In this document: in pieces, positions 8,907-19,155 of the stretch | How the letters are laid out: every line of letters starts with the position of its first letter | Numbering within the stretch: position 1 is the first letter of the stretch | Assembly (NCBI GenBank): GCA_030252795.1 | Contig: CP127080.1 | Coordinates: 756,501-820,500, forward strand | Source: Porticoccaceae bacterium LTM1 | GTDB lineage: Bacteria; Pseudomonadota; Gammaproteobacteria; Pseudomonadales; Porticoccaceae | Reading direction: 5' to 3' | DNA length: 64,000 nucleotides | Made by a program: the position numbers and the translations under genes | The notes under the pieces: generated by a model | Seen by the model: the letters and a program-made list of their open reading frames with translations, nothing else | Told to the model about the DNA's origin: nothing | Database searches by the model: none

Positions 8907-9080
8907 CACAACGGCCCTGATCTGTAGCTTAAAGGCAGGAGAGTTTAAATGAAGCTACTCGACAGGTCATTATTTGTGAATCCATCTATAGCTCCCACCT
9001 TCAGTTTGATTGAAAAAATTTCCGTGGGTTTGTCGGGTGGTGACGTTTAACAGGGTGCAATTAATAAATTTGGAGGGAAT

Positions 9081-10238
9081 ATGAAGTATATACGATTGAG
9101 TCTACTGGCTTTTTGTGCGCTATTTTCGCTGATTGGAAATGCGGGTACCAGTACATATGAGCTTGTTGTCACCGGTGGTGAGCACTTTCCTGAGGGGGCT
9201 CGAGTTATGGTTTGGCGCAACAAAGCAGTGGAATCACCAAAATCCACAGAAGTTTTAGGGGCCGCTCCATTCGAAAAAGGAGCGTTTCAGCTATCTGGTG
9301 GGGTAGATGACCCATATATGGTTGCAATTGATGTACTGCCTGCTGAGGGCGACCATGCTTACACTCGCGTCAATTTTGTGCTGGAACCGGGGAAAACGGT
9401 TATTCACTTCTCTGATTACCAGCACTTTAAACTGGAGGGAGGGGAGTACAATCGTTTGGTTGTGAACTCCTGGAACGATGATAAGGCTTATCAGTCAGCC
9501 TTCGATGCACTTTATGAATATTCAAAAAATGCCGATTTAAAGGATCCTGATCAAAAGGAGAGATACTTTGAGCTATTTCGTCAAGCAGGTGCAATCAAAA
9601 AACAAGCCCTTGCTAACGTTCTGAACGAGACCTCGGACCCCCTCGTAAAATTGTTGGTTTATGGCGGTATGTACTACCGGGGCGAAGGAGAGGACACAAA
9701 TCAAATCGTTATGGAGCTGTGTAAGGCGCTGGAAGGTCATCGTCAAGCCAAGGTCTCAATGCTAAACCTGACTAGCATGATGGAATCGGATAAGGCGCGT
9801 TCAGCATTCCAGATTGGCACCGTTATCAAGGACTTTACCGCTGAAGATCTGACTGGCAAGGAGTTCCATCTCGCCAATGTTTTGACCAAGAACAAGTATG
9901 TGTTGGTGGAATTTTGGGCATCATGGTGCAGCCCTTGTCGAGCAGAAATTCCCCATATGAAAACTGCTTATCAGAGCTTTAGTGATAAAGGTTTTGAGAT
10001 AGTCTCCTTTACTCTGGATGATGATCGTGATGCCTGGGAGGATGCTTCGAAAGAGGAGAATTTACCCTGGATTAATACCGGTGATCTCTTGGCGAGCACC
10101 AGCCCGGTTGTGAAGATGTATGGCGTGACAGGTGTTCCGGCCAACTATCTGGTGGAAGGCGCAACCGGCAAGATTGTTGCCATGGATTTGCGCGGTACCA
10201 AGCTGGATGAAAAACTGGCGGAATTGTTAGGACATTAA
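9081..10238 (+). CDS. Exported TlpA/ResA-like thiol-disulfide protein with N-terminal DUF4369-like region
   Basis: The 385-residue protein has a signal peptide (MKYIRLSLLAFCALFSLIGNAG), a beta-rich N-terminal region resembling DUF4369 (about 25-130), a helical linker, and a thioredoxin domain from about residue 250. The active site WASWCSPCR places redox Cys at 283 and 286, with a cis-Pro-type GVTGVPANYLV segment near residue 350. Such proteins reduce or exchange disulfides in the periplasm, for example in cytochrome c maturation. The DUF4369-TlpA architecture is best known from Bacteroidetes, so its presence here is notable. A strong TTGGAGGG ribosome site precedes the ATG. It lies upstream of the sigma/TonB locus on the same strand but is separated from it by a terminator. 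Confidence 0.85.
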   Translation: MKYIRLSLLAFCALFSLIGNAGTSTYELVVTGGEHFPEGARVMVWRNKAVESPKSTEVLGAAPFEKGAFQLSGGVDDPYMVAIDVLPAEGDHAYTRVNFVLEPGKTVIHFSDYQHFKLEGGEYNRLVVNSWNDDKAYQSAFDALYEYSKNADLKDPDQKERYFELFRQAGAIKKQALANVLNETSDPLVKLLVYGGMYYRGEGEDTNQIVMELCKALEGHRQAKVSMLNLTSMMESDKARSAFQIGTVIKDFTAEDLTGKEFHLANVLTKNKYVLVEFWASWCSPCRAEIPHMKTAYQSFSDKGFEIVSFTLDDDRDAWEDASKEENLPWINTGDLLASTSPVVKMYGVTGVPANYLVEGATGKIVAMDLRGTKLDEKLAELLGH

Positions 10239-10245
10239 GGTTGAT

Positions 10246-10287
10246 ACCCCATAGGTTGGTGAGATTCCGGCCTATGGGGTTGATTTT
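10246..10287 (+). terminator. Terminator after the TlpA-like gene
   Basis: A perfect 10-bp stem (ACCCCATAGG / CCTATGGGGT) with a 15-nt loop is followed by TGATTTTTAA. It starts seven bases past the stop codon. The remaining ~200 bases up to the sigma gene hold the promoter candidate below and nothing else I can identify. Confidence 0.7.
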
Positions 10288-10481
10288 TAAAGCAAAACTC
10301 ATTCGTATAACCTATTCTTGGCTGGACTGATCTGGTGTGGCTCACCTTCGATTCATCGGTTGTGCTTCTAAAGACCCCTTCAATTTATTCCATTTGGGCT
10401 GTTTTGTTCTTATCGCAGGCTTGTTACCTGAATCCTTGCATATACTTTAAAGGCTAATGCCTAAAATTCCCGAAAAAACTT

Positions 10482-10507
10482 CAGGGTGTTTCTGTGTTCA
10501 TGTCGTT
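10482..10507 (+). promoter_or_regulatory. Candidate ECF-sigma promoter of the sigma/fecR/receptor operon
   Basis: CAGGGTG, 13 bases, then GTCGTT. The same two boxes at the same spacing, within a ~31-base block matching at about three quarters of positions, occur upstream of the second receptor (15499-15524). A GTC-containing -10 is typical of ECF sigma factors. This suggests that the sigma factor at 10542 transcribes its own gene and the second receptor; that is inference from the shared motif. Confidence 0.55.
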
Positions 10508-10541
10508 CAGTTAGTGTGAGGGTGTATGAGATCTGCCTATT

Positions 10542-11117
10542 GTGAACAGGCGCAATAATGTGGTTGACCTGATGGGTCGGCGGCAGGAGGAGAGAGAGCG
10601 CGTGCTCGAACAGTTGTTCAATGAGCACGGGGCTGCCCTGCGCTCGTTTGTAGCCCGGAATATGGCGGCTGATGAAGATCCGGAAGATATTGTGCAGGAA
10701 GTGTTTATCCGGTTGGTGAAGATGGATGACCTCTACGACAGGCTCACAGAAGAGAGCGGCAGTACACGTTCTTACCTGTTTACCATCGCCAACAACCTGG
10801 TGGTGGATCTTGAACGCAAGAAGTCGAGGCGTCGTGGTTTCGACAGCCGATTAATGGAAGAAGCAGAGGATGCTGTGGTGGAGTCAAATCCCGAGGTCAT
10901 TGTTTCAGCAAACCGAGAGTTGGAGATGCTCAAGGCCGTTATCATGAAGCTGCGCCCCGATTTGCGAAGGGCTTTTGTGCTTAATCGGTTTAAACATTTG
11001 AGTTACCCTCAGGTAGCGGAGCATATGGGAGTAACCGTAAAGCAGGTGGAGTATTTTATGTCCCAGGCCCTGGTTCAGATTCGACGAGCCAGACGGCAAG
11101 CAAGGGGTGAGAGGTAA
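10542..11117 (+). CDS. FecI-like ECF RNA polymerase sigma factor
   Basis: The 191-residue protein contains sigma region 2 (EDPEDIVQEVFIRLV, about 47-61, and the following YLFTIANNLVVD core-binding/-10 segment) and region 4 with a helix-turn-helix (LSYPQVAEHMGVTVKQVEYFMSQALVQIRRA). It is followed by a FecR gene and a TonB receptor with a signalling domain, the hallmark of cell-surface signalling sigma factors. The start is a GTG; an ATG ten codons later is possible. The GTG start is supported by the truncated relative at 18807, which also has a short basic N-terminus just before NVVDL. It is the first gene of an operon with fecR (5-base gap) and the receptor. Its likely targets are this operon and the second receptor. 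Confidence 0.92.
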   Translation: MNRRNNVVDLMGRRQEERERVLEQLFNEHGAALRSFVARNMAADEDPEDIVQEVFIRLVKMDDLYDRLTEESGSTRSYLFTIANNLVVDLERKKSRRRGFDSRLMEEAEDAVVESNPEVIVSANRELEMLKAVIMKLRPDLRRAFVLNRFKHLSYPQVAEHMGVTVKQVEYFMSQALVQIRRARRQARGER

Positions 11118-11122
11118 GGATT

Positions 11123-12178
11123 ATGGAAAAAATCTTACAGAATTTCAGGGAGTTGCGGGCTGCCAAAGCAGTAACACGGCTGTTCTCTGAAGACATTTCC
11201 GGCAAGGACGAGGCTGAATTACAGGCTTGGCAAAAGGAAGGTAGCGCCTTTAAAGAGGACTATCTGGATATGATAGAGGCGCTGGCTGACCTCGAGGGGC
11301 TGGTTGATGACCCTGAAATTTTGGCGGTGGCTGAAGAGACTTACAGAGAACCTGCCGACAAGAGCCGCCAATCCAACTGGCCAGTGTATGCAATGGCTGC
11401 CAGCCTGGTATTGGCTGCCGTGGTTGGTATAAGAGTGCTGGTGCCCTTTGGTGAAGAGTCGGCATCCGATATCAATGTGTCTCGCTATGCCACTCGAGTA
11501 GGCGAGCAGAAAGTTGTTAACTTGCCGGATGGGTCCGAAATCACCCTGAATACAGGAAGTTTGATGTTAGTCGAAATGTCAAAAAATCAGAGGCGGATCA
11601 TTCTGGAGCACGGAGAGGCATACTTTGCGGTGGCGCCGGACGAGAGTCGCCCCTTCACAGTGGATTTGGGAGAGCGTTCTGTGACCGTATTGGGTACAGA
11701 GTTCAATATCCTGAAATCCCCCGAGAGCTTTACCCTTGCGGTTGTAGAGGGGATGGTGTCTTTGCATCGCAAAGAGGAGCCGGTTTCAGGGAACAGCTTA
11801 CTGTTATTGCCTGACAGGAACCCAGTCAACTTGAATGATCCTGGTCAGGTTCGCCTGGTTGCCGGCAATGTTGCGGAATTTAATTCGATTGATCAAGAAT
11901 TGCTGGGTTTTCACGATAAGGATGTTTCCCGTTTTCAAGTCTGGCGTACGGGTAAGCTCTACTTTGATGAGGTGCCACTTTACAAGGTTGTGCATGAGTT
12001 AAACCGTTACAGTGGCAAAAAGATTATGGTTGAAGATGCTGCAGTGATGGACCTGAAAATTTATGCAGCTGTTGATCTGAAATATCCTGACGAAGTATTG
12101 ATTGATCTCGAAAAAGTGTTACCAATCAGAATTATTCGACATTTTGATCGCACTATTATTGTCGGGAAAAAACAATAA
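11123..12178 (+). CDS. FecR-type anti-sigma factor / signal transducer
   Basis: The 351-residue inner-membrane regulator has a cytoplasmic N-terminal part (about 1-85, DUF4880-like, predicted to hold the sigma factor), one membrane helix (about 87-107), and a periplasmic FecR domain (TRVGEQKVVNLPDGSEITL...). It ends in an STN-like module (FDEVPLYKVVHELNRYSGKK...) that resembles the receptor's own signalling domain. In the Fec/Fpv paradigm it receives the signal from the TonB receptor and, after proteolysis, releases or activates the sigma factor. The ATG lies five bases after the sigma stop with an AAGGA site, and the receptor follows about 40 bases later. Confidence 0.9.
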   Translation: MEKILQNFRELRAAKAVTRLFSEDISGKDEAELQAWQKEGSAFKEDYLDMIEALADLEGLVDDPEILAVAEETYREPADKSRQSNWPVYAMAASLVLAAVVGIRVLVPFGEESASDINVSRYATRVGEQKVVNLPDGSEITLNTGSLMLVEMSKNQRRIILEHGEAYFAVAPDESRPFTVDLGERSVTVLGTEFNILKSPESFTLAVVEGMVSLHRKEEPVSGNSLLLLPDRNPVNLNDPGQVRLVAGNVAEFNSIDQELLGFHDKDVSRFQVWRTGKLYFDEVPLYKVVHELNRYSGKKIMVEDAAVMDLKIYAAVDLKYPDEVLIDLEKVLPIRIIRHFDRTIIVGKKQ

Positions 12179-12217
12179 CCTGGCAAACGTTGAATCTTGG
12201 AGTCAGTCGGAGGGGCT

Positions 12218-15200
12218 GTGAAGCATTGTTTCAAACGGTTCAGGTTGACTCAGTCATTTTGTACCGTACTTCTGTTTTCCTCGCTGGGTTTTTCTGCCCT
12301 GGCTGCTGGCGATGTCAAAAAATTTGAAATTGATATTCAAAGCCAATCTGCTGGAAAGTCGCTGCTTACGTTGGCGCGAAGTACTGGCGTCCAGATTATG
12401 TTGCAGGAGGGGCCAGCAAGTAAGGTCCAGCTCCCGGCTCTGAAAGGAACTTATTCTCTAGAGGAGGCCTTAATTGCTTTATTGGGCGACGTTGAGCTGG
12501 AATATGAATTTACGTCAGTTAATAGGGTTGTTGTTAAATCCGCCAAAGCGGCTTCAAAGGGAAAAGAAGCTGCGCCGCTCGAGGAAGTAATTGTTACGGG
12601 AACACGCCTTAAGCATCATAACCCGGCGTTGCCAATAATTACTTTTGTTCGTGCTGACCTGGATCGTGGTGGATATTCGTCACTGGCGGATGTTTTTCGC
12701 CGTCTTCCGCAAAACCTGAATTCTTTAAGTGCAGCTTCTATTGAGGCGGGAGAGGCAGAGTTTGGTGAAGACCGAACTCTTTCTGATTCTTCACTCGGAT
12801 TATCCAGTGTCAACCTTCGCGGTATTGGTACTCGCGGAACCCTGATTTTGATCAATGGTCGCCGCCGTGCTGCTTCTGCACAGGGCGTTGGTAACTACAC
12901 CGATATCTCTTCAATTCCGCTTTCCCAAGTGGAAAGCATCAATATTGTTACGGATGGTGCTTCGGCGATTTATGGTGCTGATGCGGTTGGCGGTGTAGTG
13001 GATATTATTCTGCGCAAGGATTACCAGGGCGGTCAGTTTCAGGCCCGGCATGAGGATTCCGGTTCCGGAGCGAACCTCAGTCGCATTAATGGTGCCTATA
13101 CATTTAATTGGGGCGAGGGTTACCTCAGTGCCAGCGCCGACATTTCAAAAAGTAAATCGGCGGATACCAGCAGCTTTATTTATAGCGGCCCCAACGGAAT
13201 TGGTGACTTTACCGATAAGGGTGGCGTCAATACCCGGAAAATAGGTTTTGGACAGCCGGGGTCAGTGTATGAAGTTGACCCCTTCCGTCCATTTATGCCA
13301 TTTGAGGGAGACTTTATTGGATTGATTCCGGAGGGACAGGATGGCTCCAGTTTGCAGGAGTCGGATCTGATCGTGGGAGATCCGAATGCACGCCAAATTT
13401 ATGAAAATCCAGCCATTGGTCCTAAAGTTAACGCCAAGTCCCTGCGTTTGAACGGTGAGCAAGAGCTGGGTGATAGCCTGAACCTGGGTTTTGAGGTCAG
13501 CTACAGCAAACTGGAGAATACCGGTTTCTGGGAGCCAACCCTGTTTGAGTTTAATTCCTTGGCTTTTTTTGCCCGCAATATGACTCTAATTCCCGAGGAG
13601 AATCCCTATAATCATTTTGGTCGCGATGTGCTGGTGGCATACTCCTATGCCAACGAATTTGCGCAAATGGGTGAGAGTCAGGATGAGCGTCAGGAAAACT
13701 ACAACTTGATGCTGGATTTGACCGGCGAACTGCCGATGGTGGAGGGCTGGGATTTCACTCTGAACTACGCCTACAGCAAAGAGAAGGGCAAGAGTGATTA
13801 TCTGTTTGACGCAACCGGCACCTTCGGAGACGGCGATAAAGATCCGGCATTGCGGGTATTGCCGGTACTGTTGCAGTTAAATCCGTTTGGCGATGGCAGT
13901 GATCCGGCGACGGTTGCCAATAATGCGGCACTGTTGAGCAGTTGGATCGAGCGAAATTTTAATGATGCGGTATCCGATAGCCACAGTATGGAATTGAGTG
14001 TCAATGGAACGCTGCTCTCCCTGCCGGCCGGTGACGTGCAAATGGTGGTGGGTGCCAACCTGCGCCGGGAAAAGGTCAGCAGTATAATCCAGTCAGAGGA
14101 TGCGCCGAATCAAGATCCTTACCCCTACAGGCGTGGTAATGAGAGGGAAGTAACGGCGTACTTTGTCGAGATGGGTATTCCGTTACTGGCGGATAAACCA
14201 TTCGCGAAAGAGTTGGATCTTACCCTGGCTGCCCGTTACGAAAAAATTGATCAGCAAGGGACAAGTCGTCTCTCCAATGGCCTGTATGAATTGGATGATG
14301 ATCTCTATCAGGCCGGAGCGGGGTATCCCGACTATTACGTGCCCTGGGGGGATGTTGGCGATTTCAATCTGGGGGAGTTTGTCGGACTTGCTGAAGCTGG
14401 CAGCATATTTACTAATGGTCCGGATACGGCTGTCGATCGCACCTTCAGCAGCACAACCCCTCAGGTCAGCCTGAACTGGCGTCCGGTGGATGATCTGCGT
14501 GTACGCGCTACTTGGGGTGAGTCCTTCCTGACGCCTCAGTCACAACAGTTGTATGGCAATGTGCGTGCATTTGATGGACTTTACTCATGGACGTCTTTGG
14601 AGGGGCTGCCTCTGCCTGACGGTGTTAACCGAGTGGCTTGGTTGTCAGGTCCTAACTCAAATCTGGAGCCCCAGGACGCTGAAACCTGGACGGTGGGTTT
14701 TGACTACACCCCAATGGCGCTGCCTGGGTTGGTGGTCAAGGCGACATACAGCGAAGTGGAATTCGATAATTACATCAGTACACCTTACGCCAACATAGGG
14801 CTCTCTGTACTGGCAGAAAACCTGGAGATGTTCCCGGAAATTTTCAATATCGATTACCCGAATCTGCTGATCTTCGATTCCAGGGAGCAAAACCTGGCCA
14901 AACGTACTTCCCGAACAGTAGATATCGATATTGACTACACACTGGACAGTGATATTGGGGGTTGGTATTTCGCCCTCAATGCGGCCCGGACTCTGGAAAC
15001 CTCACAGCAAGCGAATAAGACAGCGGGCAAGCAGGTGTTCTCAGAAACCGAGCGAGGGCCAAGTAAGTGGGCGGCCAATTTTACTGTGGGCTGGGACTAC
15101 GGCAACTACGATGTGACGTTAGTAACTAACTATACTTCGTCTCATAAAGTAGCCAATCCGCTTTCGGCGCGTGGCACGATTTATAACGATTTTACGCCAA

Positions 15201-15433
15201 ACCTAAATCCGCAAACCCGCAGCCACGGTACCACCACCTTTGATCTGCAGGTGGGTTATACCGCCGATGCGGCCTCTGGTTGGCTGCAGGGAACCAAGAT
15301 GCAACTGGGGGCGCAGAACCTGTTTGATGCCGATCCGGAGTTTGTGGATTCAAAACTCGGCTACGCCACCAATCGCCTGGATGTCCGCGGCAGGGTAATT
15401 TATCTGGATCTGCAAAAGCAATTTGCTCTTTAA
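12218..15433 (+). CDS. TonB-dependent outer-membrane receptor with N-terminal STN signalling domain
   Basis: GTG 12218 is preferred because CGGAGG lies just upstream, giving ~1071 residues. Order: signal peptide ending SALAAG, an STN domain (FEIDIQSQSAGKSLLTLARSTGVQIML..., about 35-90), TonB box and plug start (EEVIVTGTR), a plug with GIGTRGTLILINGRRRA and DGASAIYGADAVGGVVDIIL, and a C-terminal 22-strand-type barrel. The protein ends LQKQFAL, with an aromatic residue near the end. The STN domain plus upstream sigma and FecR genes mark it as a transducer that senses as well as imports its ligand. The ligand is unknown. This plug subtype is common in Caulobacter, Sphingomonas and Cellvibrio relatives and is not limited to siderophores. 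It is 70-80% identical by eye to the next gene over most of its length. Confidence 0.93.
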   Translation: MKHCFKRFRLTQSFCTVLLFSSLGFSALAAGDVKKFEIDIQSQSAGKSLLTLARSTGVQIMLQEGPASKVQLPALKGTYSLEEALIALLGDVELEYEFTSVNRVVVKSAKAASKGKEAAPLEEVIVTGTRLKHHNPALPIITFVRADLDRGGYSSLADVFRRLPQNLNSLSAASIEAGEAEFGEDRTLSDSSLGLSSVNLRGIGTRGTLILINGRRRAASAQGVGNYTDISSIPLSQVESINIVTDGASAIYGADAVGGVVDIILRKDYQGGQFQARHEDSGSGANLSRINGAYTFNWGEGYLSASADISKSKSADTSSFIYSGPNGIGDFTDKGGVNTRKIGFGQPGSVYEVDPFRPFMPFEGDFIGLIPEGQDGSSLQESDLIVGDPNARQIYENPAIGPKVNAKSLRLNGEQELGDSLNLGFEVSYSKLENTGFWEPTLFEFNSLAFFARNMTLIPEENPYNHFGRDVLVAYSYANEFAQMGESQDERQENYNLMLDLTGELPMVEGWDFTLNYAYSKEKGKSDYLFDATGTFGDGDKDPALRVLPVLLQLNPFGDGSDPATVANNAALLSSWIERNFNDAVSDSHSMELSVNGTLLSLPAGDVQMVVGANLRREKVSSIIQSEDAPNQDPYPYRRGNEREVTAYFVEMGIPLLADKPFAKELDLTLAARYEKIDQQGTSRLSNGLYELDDDLYQAGAGYPDYYVPWGDVGDFNLGEFVGLAEAGSIFTNGPDTAVDRTFSSTTPQVSLNWRPVDDLRVRATWGESFLTPQSQQLYGNVRAFDGLYSWTSLEGLPLPDGVNRVAWLSGPNSNLEPQDAETWTVGFDYTPMALPGLVVKATYSEVEFDNYISTPYANIGLSVLAENLEMFPEIFNIDYPNLLIFDSREQNLAKRTSRTVDIDIDYTLDSDIGGWYFALNAARTLETSQQANKTAGKQVFSETERGPSKWAANFTVGWDYGNYDVTLVTNYTSSHKVANPLSARGTIYNDFTPNLNPQTRSHGTTTFDLQVGYTADAASGWLQGTKMQLGAQNLFDADPEFVDSKLGYATNRLDVRGRVIYLDLQKQFAL

Positions 15434-15498
15434 GTTATTGAAATTTAATAGAAGATAATTTTTTTAGCTACTAATTCACCAGTAAATAAAAAATAGTT

Positions 15499-15524
15499 CA
15501 GGGTGACTTGTTTTTCATGTCGTT
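15499..15524 (+). promoter_or_regulatory. Candidate ECF-sigma promoter of the second receptor
   Basis: CAGGGTG, 13 bases, GTCGTT, matching the element at 10482-10507 in both boxes and spacing. The surrounding block (TTCAGGGTG...TTCATGTCGTTyAG) is also conserved. It lies 75 bases before the start codon, in a ~165-base gap that otherwise holds no gene. It implies independent but co-regulated transcription of the second receptor. Confidence 0.55.
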
Positions 15525-15598
15525 TAGGTTTGTAGGTTTCCGAGAAAACCAAAAGCATTGGGAACTTGAAACATTAACGACACGAAGAGGTGGGTTAC

Positions 15599-18583
15599 AT
15601 GAAATCAGGAAAATATTCGTTTCCGGTAAATCGTTTGGCAATGAGTATTGCCGCCGTATTGAGTATGTCTGTCTCAATCAGCTCCTACGCTGATACAGAA
15701 AAGGGTGAAGAGGCAGAAAAAGACCTGGAAGAGGTTGTTGTTACAGGAACGCGCCTAAAAAATCACAATCCGGCATCACCGACAATCACTTATACACGTG
15801 AAGACCTGGAAAAAGGCGGATATTCATCGCTGGCAGATGTGTTTCGTCGTTTGCCACAAAATCTCAGTAGCTTAAGTGCAGCCGCTTCGGAGGCAGGTCA
15901 AACGGAATTTGGTGCGGACCGGTCGCTGACAGACTCTTCTCTGGGGGTCTCCAGTGTCAACCTTCGCGGTATTGGTACTCGCGGAACCCTGATTTTGATC
16001 AATGGTCGCCGCCGTGCTGCCTCGGCGCAGGGCGTTGGTAATTACACTGATATTTCTTCAATTCCGCTTTCCCAAGTGGAAAGCATCAATATTGTTACTG
16101 ACGGTGCTTCGGCAATTTACGGAGCCGATGCGGTTGGTGGTGTGGTGGATATTATTTTACGTAAGGACTACCAGGGCGGGCAGTTCCAGGCTCGACACGA
16201 AGACTCCGGTTCCGGGGCGAACCTCAGTCGCATCAATGGTGCCTACACATTTAATTGGGATGGCGGTTACCTCAGTGCCAGCGCCGACATTTCAAAAAGT
16301 AAATCGGCGGATACCAGTGCCTTTATCCACAGTGGCCCGAGCGGGATTGGGGATTTTACCGATAAGGGTGGGGTTAATACGAGGAAGATTGGTTTTGGAC
16401 AGCCAGGTTCTGTGTATGAAGTTCGCCCATTCTTTAACCCGTTAGCACCGCGTGCTGGTGCACGGATTGGTCTGATCCCGGAAGGTCAGGATGGATCCAG
16501 TTTGCAGGAGTCGGACTTGATCGCTGGCGACCCCGAGACTCGCCAGGTCTATGAAAACCCGGCCATTGGTCCTAAAACTGATGCCAAATCCCTGCGTTTG
16601 AACGGAGAGCAGGAGCTGGGGGATACACTGAACCTGGGTTTTGAGGTCAGCTACAGCAAACAGGAGAATGCCGGTTTCTGGGAACCTACCCTGTTTGAGT
16701 TTAACTCCCTGGACATCTATGCCCAGCGTATGACTTATGTTCCGGAAGCGAACCCTTACAACAATTTTGGTCGCGATGTATTGGTGGCCTACTCCTATGC
16801 CAACGAATTTGCGCAAATGGGTGAGAGTCAGGATGAGCGTCAGGAAAACTACAACCTGATGCTGGATTTGACCGGTGAGCTGCCGATGTTGGAGGGCTGG
16901 GATTTCACTCTGAACTACGCCTACAGCAAAGAGAAGGGCAAGAGTGATCATCTGCTTGACGCAACCGGCACCTCCGGAGACGGCGATAAAGATCCGGCAT
17001 TGCGGGTATTGCCGGTACTGTTGCAGTTAAATCCGTTTGGCGATGGCAGTGATCCGGCGACGGTTGCCAATAATGCGGCACTGTTGAGTAGTTGGATCGA
17101 GCGAGATTTTAATGATGCGGTATCCGATAGCCACAGTATGGAATTGAGTGTGAATGGAACGCTGCTCTCCCTGCCGGCCGGTGACGTGCAAATGGTGGTG
17201 GGTGCCAACCTGCGTCGGGAAGAGGTAAGCAGTGTTATCCAGTCGGAGGATACGCCGAATCAAGACCCCTACCCCTTCAGACGTGGCAATGAGCGGGACG
17301 TGACGGCGTACTTTGTCGAGATGGGAATTCCGTTACTGGCGGATAAACCATTCGCGAAAGAGTTGGATCTTACCCTGGCTGCCCGTTACGAAAAAATTGA
17401 TCAGCGAGGGGCAAGTCGTCTCTCCAATGGCCTGTATGAGTTTGATTTTGACCTCTATCTTGCCGGTGCTGAGTTCCCGGATTATTACGTACCCTGGGCC
17501 GATGTCGGCGACTTCAATCTGGGAGAGTATGTGGGGCTTGCCGAAGCCGGTAGCGCCTATACCTATGGCCCTGATACACCGATTGATCGGACTTTCAGCA
17601 GCACAACTCCCCAGGTCAGCCTGAACTGGCGTCCGACGGATGATCTGCGCGTACGCGCTACCTGGGGTGAGTCTTTCCTGACGCCTCAGTCGCAACAGCT
17701 GTATGGCAATGTGACTTCATTTGATGGGTCTTACTCATGGGAAGTGTGGGAAGGCATACCTCTGCCGGACGGTGTCAGCCGAGTGGCCTGGTTGTCGGGG
17801 CCTAACCCGAATCTGCTGCCGCAGGACGCAGAGACCTGGACGGTTGGATTTGACTACACCCCGATGGCACTGTCTGGATTGGTGCTGAAGGCAACGTATA
17901 GTGAAGTGGAATTCGATAATTACATCAGTACACCTTCTGCCGGCGTAGGGCTTTCTACACTGGCGGAAGACTTGGAGGCGTTCCCGGAACTCTTCAACAC
18001 CGATTATCCGAATCTGCTGATCTACGATGCTCGTGAGCATAACCTGGCCAAGCGTACTTCCCGGACTGTAGATGTCGATGTTAACTACATGCTGGACAGT
18101 GATATTGGCAGTTGGTACTTCGCCCTCAATGCGTCTCGTACCCTGGAAACGTCACAACAGGCAAACGAGTTGGCTGACAAGCAAGTGTTCTCGGACACTG
18201 AGCGGGGCCCGAGCAAGTGGGCGGCCAACTTCACTGTGGGCTGGGATTACGGTAACTACGATGTGACGTTAGTCACTAACTATACATCGTCCCATAAAGT
18301 GGTCGATCCACTTTCAGGGCGTGAAACAATTTATAACAAGTTTATCAAGAACCCAAATCCGCAAACCCGCAGTCACGGTACTACTACCTATGATCTGCAG
18401 GTGGGGTATACCGCCGATGCAGCCTCAGGCTGGATGCAGGGAACCAAAGTGAAACTGGGTGCGCAAAACCTGTTTGATGCCAAACCGGAGTTTGTGGACT
18501 CGACCATTGGTTATGCCACCAATCGCTTGGATGTCCGCGGCAGGGTGATTTATCTGGACCTGATCAAGCAGTTTGATATGTAA
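15599..18583 (+). CDS. TonB-dependent outer-membrane receptor, tandem paralogue without STN domain
   Basis: ATG 15599 is chosen (AGAGG eight bases upstream; MKSGKYSFPVNRLAMSIAAVLSM is a good signal peptide), giving 994 residues. After a short acidic linker it goes straight to the TonB box and plug (EEVVVTGTR), so unlike its neighbour it cannot signal through FecR. The plug and many barrel strands are nearly identical to the first receptor: bases 16981-17216 match 13831-14066 with only about five differences. Other parts differ clearly, as at GAEFPDYYVPWADV versus GAGYPDYYVPWGDV and in the loop after VYEV. The pattern fits tandem duplication followed by gene conversion of the scaffold and divergence of extracellular loops. 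It probably imports a related ligand under the same sigma factor. Confidence 0.93.
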   Translation: MKSGKYSFPVNRLAMSIAAVLSMSVSISSYADTEKGEEAEKDLEEVVVTGTRLKNHNPASPTITYTREDLEKGGYSSLADVFRRLPQNLSSLSAAASEAGQTEFGADRSLTDSSLGVSSVNLRGIGTRGTLILINGRRRAASAQGVGNYTDISSIPLSQVESINIVTDGASAIYGADAVGGVVDIILRKDYQGGQFQARHEDSGSGANLSRINGAYTFNWDGGYLSASADISKSKSADTSAFIHSGPSGIGDFTDKGGVNTRKIGFGQPGSVYEVRPFFNPLAPRAGARIGLIPEGQDGSSLQESDLIAGDPETRQVYENPAIGPKTDAKSLRLNGEQELGDTLNLGFEVSYSKQENAGFWEPTLFEFNSLDIYAQRMTYVPEANPYNNFGRDVLVAYSYANEFAQMGESQDERQENYNLMLDLTGELPMLEGWDFTLNYAYSKEKGKSDHLLDATGTSGDGDKDPALRVLPVLLQLNPFGDGSDPATVANNAALLSSWIERDFNDAVSDSHSMELSVNGTLLSLPAGDVQMVVGANLRREEVSSVIQSEDTPNQDPYPFRRGNERDVTAYFVEMGIPLLADKPFAKELDLTLAARYEKIDQRGASRLSNGLYEFDFDLYLAGAEFPDYYVPWADVGDFNLGEYVGLAEAGSAYTYGPDTPIDRTFSSTTPQVSLNWRPTDDLRVRATWGESFLTPQSQQLYGNVTSFDGSYSWEVWEGIPLPDGVSRVAWLSGPNPNLLPQDAETWTVGFDYTPMALSGLVLKATYSEVEFDNYISTPSAGVGLSTLAEDLEAFPELFNTDYPNLLIYDAREHNLAKRTSRTVDVDVNYMLDSDIGSWYFALNASRTLETSQQANELADKQVFSDTERGPSKWAANFTVGWDYGNYDVTLVTNYTSSHKVVDPLSGRETIYNKFIKNPNPQTRSHGTTTYDLQVGYTADAASGWMQGTKVKLGAQNLFDAKPEFVDSTIGYATNRLDVRGRVIYLDLIKQFDM

Positions 18584-18608
18584 GGTTTAGGTTTTTTACT
18601 GCCTCCGA

Positions 18609-18642
18609 AAGCCTCTCCCAATACTGGGAGGGGCTTTTTTGT
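18609..18642 (+). terminator. Terminator after the second receptor
   Basis: Stem AGCCTCTCCCA / TGGGAGGGGCT (one G-U pair), loop ATAC, followed by TTTTTTGTTT. This is a strong intrinsic terminator about 25 bases past the stop. Confidence 0.85.
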
Positions 18643-18806
18643 TTCCGTGTAAGGTTCAGCTGAGACAGTTGCCTACGTAGATACAGCCGCTCATAGAGGT
18701 AATTAGTCCCGCGATAAGTCGTAGAGATGGATCTAAAATAAAAAATTAGGGGTATCCATCGATTAAACGTGTCTATGGATACGAAAGAGCGTAATAAGGC
18801 TCTGAA

Positions 18807-18932
18807 GTGGCATTGATGGCTCGAAAAAAGGGCAATGTAGTAGACCTGAATGGGCGGCTTGCGAGTCGTTCCAGGGCTCTCGAGTGCCTGTTTAAAGAGG
18901 ATGGCCGGTTATTGCGGGGGAATCGCCATTAG
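18807..18932 (+). pseudogene. Truncated second FecI-like sigma factor gene
   Basis: A short frame, from GTG 18807 or ATG 18816 to TAG 18932, encodes MARKKGNVVDLNGRLASRSR and continues to LFKEDGRLLRGNRH. It aligns with the N-terminus of the sigma factor at 10542 (RRNNVVDLMGRRQEERERVLEQ, then LFNEHGAALRS). Everything from sigma region 2 onward is missing, and similarity stops where IS3-type transposase remnant sequence begins. It is a dead gene fragment, the trace of a second sigma/fecR/receptor cassette that once followed the second receptor. An upstream AGGGGTA...GTGTCT pair at about 18749-18775 faintly resembles the sigma promoter. Confidence 0.75.
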
Positions 18933-19056: not shown

Positions 19057-19155
19057 TCAATTGTTGGTTACTCGGTTTTGCTCTGTTAAATTCTCTCGAT
19101 ACTGTGCGGCAAACTCTGCTGGCGTCAGGTAGCCGAGAAATGAGTGAGGCCTATA
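19057..19155 (-). pseudogene. IS3-family transposase C-terminal remnant B
   Basis: On the minus strand the sequence reads RPHSFLGYLTPAEFAAQYRE, then NLTEQNRVTNN and a stop at 19057-19059. RPHSxLGYLTPAEFA is the classic end of IS3-family OrfB (DDE integrase). The upstream part is gone: similarity ends abruptly at about 19155, against the terminator of the next gene. It is a different IS from remnant A, since both fragments are C-terminal ends. Two insertions and deletions are therefore stacked here. Confidence 0.7.

Follow-up and report, generated by a model that had tools for sequence, protein, structure and literature searches.

The window (the whole 64,000-base stretch analysed, positions 756501-820500 of a contig of 3,132,333 bases) encodes a FecI-like ECF sigma factor that probably reads two matched promoters. 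One stands before its own operon, which would be autoregulated, and the other before a second TonB-dependent receptor. Many sister cassettes across the genome would carry paired promoters of the same type, with cassette-specific addresses. We consider this the best explanation of the sequences, with a probability of about 0.85.

The two-receptor locus

The locus lies on the + strand and runs in the order hairpin, promoter copy, sigma, FecR, receptor 1, promoter copy, receptor 2, hairpin:

10246..10280, + strand: terminator-like hairpin (14 pairs) between the upstream thioredoxin-like gene and the sigma operon
10480..10509, + strand: Psig, predicted ECF promoter; -35 block TTCAGGGTG (10480-10488), spacer 12, -10 block TGTCGTTCA (10501-10509)
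10542..11117, + strand: FecI-like ECF sigma factor, 191 aa, GTG start; Pfam Sigma70_r2 and Sigma70_r4_2
11123..12178, + strand: FecR-type sigma regulator, 351 aa; Pfam FecR PF04773 (8.4e-20), FecR_C below cut-off
12218..15433, + strand: first TonB-dependent receptor, with STN-like N-terminal region, Plug and barrel; abuts fecR
15497..15526, + strand: Preceptor2, matching (putative) promoter copy; -35 block TTCAGGGTG (15497-15505), spacer 12, -10 block TGTCGTTTA (15518-15526)
15599..18583, + strand: second TonB-dependent receptor, 994 aa, without STN-like region; 86% identical to receptor 1
18607..18638, + strand: terminator-like hairpin (14 pairs) after receptor 2

The sigma factor carries both region 2 and region 4 (Pfam), as expected of the FecI type, and is adjoined by a FecR-domain regulator, as in FecI/FecR/FecA-type systems. 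The NCBIfam FecI models matched it below their cut-offs (e.g. NF041727, 68.9 vs 260 bits). The two hairpins are to be read against the number of such terminator-like hairpins in the region, which was 10 and not above that in shuffled sequences (10.5).

The ORF of receptor 1 opens at 12197, and the GTG at 12218 was picked by eye for the preceding GGAGGGG. Plug and barrel were clear; the STN match (PF07660) was weak and below the Pfam cut-off (E 0.047). The receptor of a sister cassette (cassette 29) passed that cut-off (30.0 bits vs 28.4). The two receptors align only beyond the N-terminus, starting at residue 103 of P0003, with 86% identity over 970 residues, and the N-terminus of receptor 2 gave no Pfam match. 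The initial annotation had called this second receptor non-signalling, and the N-terminal STN-like signalling region is indeed absent from it.

Two predicted promoter copies in the locus

The pattern CAGGGTG-N13-GTCGTT, from which a shared ECF promoter had been proposed in the initial annotation, was found at 10482-10507 and 15499-15524 on the + strand with no mismatches and identical spacing. The surrounding block, said to match at about three quarters of positions, was identical at 25 of 33. A genome-wide motif search had been set as a check, and frequent occurrence at random positions was to count against the proposal. The search gave exactly two exact copies in the 3,132,333-base single contig, both at this locus, and the exact pattern was nowhere else in the genome.

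When up to two mismatches were allowed, the motif was at background level (75 places in the genome, vs 88 for a reversed control pattern), so only the exact copies stand out. The same search of the window gave three places, not above chance (14 of 100 shuffles reach 3). One mismatch added two places in the genome, both rejected as regulon members: L003 is a palindromic sequence before a probable membrane-protein ORF (by eye), and L004 lies inside an ORF on the opposite strand. The initial annotation needs correction in one respect: CAGGGTG taken by itself lacks specificity, as many sigma promoters here have AGGG as their -35 core (19 of 29 curated sigma-upstream sites). The CAGGGTG at 9051-9057, before the thioredoxin-like gene, was without a -10 partner (by eye).

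A general two-block model (-35 core AGGG, -10 core CGT), fitted on the same sigma-upstream regions that it scores, gave 17.9 for Psig and 18.7 for Preceptor2. The sigma ORF starts 33 bp downstream of Psig. For Preceptor2, the best match among 41 sigma-upstream regions of the genome was the region of its own sigma (18 vs 16). The regions ahead of sigma and of receptor 2 gave no sigma-70-like match on the + strand.

ECF promoters are described with AAC at -35 and CGT at -10 (PMC8103513). The canonical CGT was present in both window sites, as in 27 of the 29 curated sigma sites. The -35 block of the two window sites, TTCAGGGTG, is without the canonical AAC. In our interpretation, both sites are very probably promoters at which the local ECF sigma factor would start transcription.

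Sister cassettes in the same genome

The sigma protein matched 41 places in its own genome, itself included (E <= 1e-10), and FecR matches numbered 43. Behind 39 of the 41 sigma genes, a FecR and then a receptor followed in resolved order (SIG-FecR-receptor cassettes). A model scan of the 681 kb fetched showed a cassette-specific promoter-like site twice in many of them, before sigma and before the receptor, a recurrence that the initial annotation had missed.

The best of 205 shuffled regions scored 15.5, a value exceeded by 16 of the 41 sigma-upstream regions. On the model score alone, about half of the sigma sites would therefore not count as strong. A curated promoter table covered 29 of the 41 cassettes, and its receptor sites were picked in knowledge of the sigma site; left out were cassettes 15, 20, 22, 26, 28, 29 and 36-41, as spacing, receptor or site was not clear.

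In the usual cassette, the receptor adjoining fecR bears the second promoter copy, and an STN-like N-terminus was seen by eye in 41 of 46 receptor ORFs. The window locus and cassette 17 are variants, in which receptor 1 abuts FecR and a second receptor bears the copy; that of cassette 17 keeps an STN-like N-terminus and that of the window is without one. The window locus is a variant, not the model, of the cassette design of this genome.

Among 195 genomes of the order, a comparison that listed at least 24 FecR for the window genome, the next-highest FecR counts were at least 24 (26 candidates), at least 21 (G184, 28 candidates) and 20 (same genus). Among 199 genomes of the phylum, a sample overlapping that of the order, G184 had at least 21, followed by 16 and 14.

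Thioredoxin-like genes accompanied many cassettes (L093, L095, L097, L098, L103, L108, L122), and 19 ORFs in the fetched stretches matched the window thioredoxin-like protein, whose gene (9081-10238) stands upstream of sigma. Of ten other genes directly following a receptor, seven matched thioredoxin families, one encodes a PF00141 peroxidase and one a BNR-repeat protein, and the last gave no match.

A remnant of another cassette was observed just after receptor 2 (18746-18932, + strand). It consists of a promoter-like TTAGGGGTA-N11-AACGTGTC, the first codons of a sigma gene, and a stop; this sigma start was 66% identical over 35 residues to the cassette 9 sigma. The remnant points to birth and decay of cassettes. 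On the - strand, a short stretch at about 19060-19140 was read by eye as LGYLTPAEFAAQYRENLTEQNRVT, which we take to be the C-terminus of an IS3-type transposase. It may have to do with how the rest of the sigma gene was lost.

Pairing of sigma and receptor promoters

The pairing was tested with no motif model, in the 37 cassettes with a FecR-receptor gap of more than 60 bases. The best two-block match (9+9 bases at equal spacing) was sought between every receptor-upstream region and all 41 sigma-upstream regions in turn. The own sigma region was strictly the best of 41 in 23 of the 37 cassettes, and best with ties included in 29. Relabelling gave a mean of 0.7 strict bests and a maximum of 5 in 2000 shuffles. 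The mean cognate score was 16.05 of 18 vs 13.72 for non-cognate pairs, and permuted means reached at most 14.35 in 10,000 permutations.

Another sigma region matched better in 8 of the 37. In five of these (cassettes 9, 11, 12, 13 and 32) the model-based sites still looked matched by eye. Cassettes 22 and 39 were without a resolved receptor, and cassette 37 and others without a clear pair.

Position was not imposed in this test. In the 23 strict pairs, the block mostly ended 39-65 bp before the sigma match (108-174 in three) and 39-73 bp before the receptor ORF (1 and 10 in two). Cassettes 38 and 41 gave a strictly best match, yet far from the sigma start.

When sites were chosen by the general model, blind to the partner, 12 of 17 pairs had the own sigma site as the strict best. 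Cognate identity rose above permutation at the -35 in the flanks of the core and in one or two bases before the block, and at the -10 in five bases around CGT, one preceding and four following it. Most columns of the spacer and outer flanks were at background, with scattered exceptions (one near the -10 with z 3.2, others at about z 2). The -35 and -10 blocks, with a few neighbouring bases, hold most of the similarity, as function predicts and simple duplication does not.

The -35 element and the recognition helix

With overall sigma similarity removed, the -35 similarity between cassettes peaked at sigma residues 163-177, helix GVTVKQVEYFMSQAL, presumably the region 4.2 recognition helix. The correlation was 0.43 for the 29 curated cassettes (family-wise, 0 of 2000 permutations) and 0.48 for partner-blind sites (n=21, family-wise p 0.0025). 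By these sequence statistics, the -35 sequence tracks the putative recognition helix across cassettes.

Residues 165 and 171 were the most linked of 191 sigma columns to a GTA-type -35 in a post hoc two-class test (p 5e-5 and 1.3e-4; about 0.01 and 0.025 after multiplication by the 191 columns). K171 was present in 16 cassettes, 11 of them GTA-type, and other residues at 171 in 13 cassettes, none of them GTA. In the window locus, residue 171 of the sigma is Y and the -35 is of the TCA type.

For the -10, no convincing link to sigma regions was found (family-wise p 0.077 with both sites). Sigma sites gave p 0.048, at the unexpected residues 139-150; receptor sites and partner-blind sites both gave 0.27. 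A link of the -10 to sigma region 2 was tried in this region-level test and not established. Ranking by mutual information between single sigma residues and promoter bases pointed to no clear pair.

Distinct addresses and possible cross-talk

Patterns built from each pair found only their own two sites in the 681 kb for 26 of 29 cassettes, the patterns being derived from the very sites that they find. The exceptions were row 35 (wrong spacer), with one site, row 18, with one site in two registers, and row 25, with one extra match. This indicates distinct addresses; that the cassettes would also be insulated from one another is our reading of the sequences.

A rather unlikely alternative is that the sites are ECF promoters of this class that are not private, so that several of the about 40 sigmas cross-recognise them in an overlapping network. 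The AGGG and CGT cores are common to most curated sites, as given above. Cassettes 3, 11 and 25 also share the full -35 block GGTAGGGTG and differ in the -10 or spacing, and the cassette 25 sigma site has the -10 GTCGTTTA, resembling that of the window copy at 15518-15526. The shared core and the shared -35 block make cross-talk possible. On the other hand, the variable bases agree much better inside a cassette than across cassettes, and most pair patterns find only their own sites even if built from them. This favors cassette-specific addresses.

Other promoter-class sites were observed outside the pairs. Two (L101; G000 2983153 and 2985020, - strand) scored 21.5 and 18.2 with -10s TGCGTGTA; one lies before a gene at the edge of the fetched stretch and the other 52 bp before a 173-aa ORF. 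They are possible extra targets of a cassette sigma. Another (L113; G000 450479, + strand) has the -10 GTGCGTTCT, identical to that of the cassette 16 receptor promoter at 431063; it lies about 20 kb from the latter, before a 292-aa ORF upstream of cassette 25.

Duplication, operator or chance

The receptor could have been copied together with its upstream DNA, leaving a block that says nothing on regulation. A duplication did happen, as the 86% identity of the receptors indicates. However, the region before receptor 1 has no such site (the best scores only 4.5), and the block matches the region before sigma. The similarity also drops at the block edges, to 23 of 58 positions upstream and 10 of 55 downstream, and the two 12-base spacers agree at 6 positions, 4 of these adjoining the -10 (by eye). 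Moreover, paired sites recur in many single-receptor cassettes, with the receptor next to fecR and most spacer columns at background. The block-edge drop, the missing receptor 1 site and this recurrence largely refute a duplication relic, which we regard as very unlikely.

It is similarly improbable that another regulator, a repressor or an activator, uses the shared block as its operator and acts on both units. Such a reading has some room, as the transcription start is a predicted one, but the block has a bipartite -35/-10 geometry with a CGT -10 and lies at similar distances from the start codons, and the -35 variation follows the sigma recognition helix. A chance similarity of two intergenic regions, which the background level of the motif at up to two mismatches might suggest, is refuted by the exact count (two copies in the 3.13-Mb genome, each ahead of a gene of this locus) and by the pairing test with its relabelled null, the pairing recurring in sister cassettes.

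Other genomes

Outside the window genome, cassettes with a FecR-receptor gap of more than 60 bases were counted. In G001, of the same genus, the own sigma region was strictly best in 6 of 12 cassettes, with 15 candidates. Outside the genus, the strict bests were 0 of 6 in G195, 1 of 3 in G184, 1 of 2 in G165/G107/G214 and 3 of 4 in G393, where groups of 3 or 4 candidates reach strict bests easily by chance. Mixed single loci gave 2 of 18 (one from G001, one from G393), and G375 yielded no cassettes for the test.

Without G001 and G393, strict bests amounted to 2 of 27 cassettes of other genomes. The design is therefore rare elsewhere, but it may reach beyond the genus, as G393 looks similar on few cases (3 of 4). 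One place in G393, which belongs to another family of the phylum, had a convincing paired site (L268 / L216), GATAGGCCC-N11-CGCGCGTCG / CGAACGTCG. This suggests a similar design outside the genus.

In distant relatives, mostly Bacteroidota, the next large ORF, taken as the receptor by size only, was within 60 bases of FecR in 27 of 31 cassettes. None of the other 4 was paired.

Discussion

In the Fec paradigm, a substrate-bound receptor signals through FecR and activates the sigma factor. In the reading that we prefer, the STN-bearing receptor 1 would bind its substrate and signal through FecR, and the sigma factor encoded at 10542-11117 would become active and read the two sites as its -35 and -10 elements. 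With RNA polymerase, it would transcribe its own operon (sigma, fecR and receptor 1) and, from the second promoter copy, the STN-less receptor 2. Most likely, signalling by receptor 1 would raise the whole operon plus receptor 2. Many of the about 40 sister cassettes would use the same promoter type before sigma and receptor. Their -35 flanks, -10 bases and spacing would form the address of each sigma, in which the recognition helix of region 4.2 would read the -35 part.

The initial annotation had the sigma factor activating its own operon and the second receptor. The matched copies support this at the sequence level, and the presence of exactly two exact sites predicts a small regulon; the direction of the autoregulation is what we infer from them. 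Receptor 2, to which that annotation gave the sole role of extra uptake capacity, may play this part or may take up a related ligand.

Among the closest known systems is FecIRA of E. coli. FecI-like factors, formerly ECF05-ECF09, are now in group ECF243 (PMC9249621), which is the main FecI-like group and the largest ECF group (PMC9249621). FecIRA likewise has an ECF sigma, a FecR and a TonB-dependent receptor; its receptor has an N-terminal signalling region, a putative one in receptor 1 here, and its receptor promoter is read by the sigma, as predicted here. However, fecIR depends on sigma-70 and Fur without regulating itself, and FecI acts on just one promoter (PMC9249621), whereas here matched copies stand at sigma and receptor, with a common -35 core AGGG and about 40 sister systems.

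FecI-like factors in general are stated as not autoregulated (PMC3817407, PMC8103513, PMC9249621), and a review gives them as the exception to ECF autoregulation (PMC8103513). Against this statement, the promoter copy before the window sigma matches that of the receptor. Contrary to print, the FecI-like factors here are apparently autoregulated.

The number of sigma factors resembles cell-surface signalling in Pseudomonas, with many CSS sigma factors per genome and a receptor that is usually a separate transcription unit (PMC4971064). Most sigma/anti-sigma operons there are under iron and Fur, and the VreI system is described without self-regulation (PMC4971064), in contrast to the matched promoter copy before sigma here.

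For private promoters among paralogues, the nearest analogue is the clostridial SigI/RsgI set, of which C. thermocellum has 8 and P. cellulosolvens 16 (PMC6056542). Cross-talk was measured in that set (PMC6056542), while the addresses described here are predicted from DNA sequence. To our knowledge, the clostridial factors belong to a different sigma group and have no TonB receptors.

Promoters were found via autoregulation also for the orthogonal ECF set of Rhodius et al. (2013), with specificity in -35 and -10 (PMC3817407); that set was gathered across genomes. A presumed lack of autoregulation was the reason for excluding FecI-like groups from that promoter mining (PMC3817407). Searches of open-access papers gave no title or abstract opening on paired private promoters in FecI-like cassettes.

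We would give even odds to a wider reading, in which FecI-like sigmas expanded in this genus, to about 40 in a 3.1-Mb genome, and each has an insulated two-promoter regulon (the sigma itself plus its receptor). If true, a single cell would hold an exceptionally large, possibly the largest, natural set of sigma-promoter pairs that work in parallel and are private to one another. The recognition helix of region 4.2 would then contain a -35 code open to reading from the paralogues. About 30 sigma-promoter pairs of one family in one cell, most with two sites, make it directly testable how paralogous sigmas diverge without cross-talk and which residues set the promoter choice of the FecI type. The cassette promoters may also be a source of orthogonal parts.
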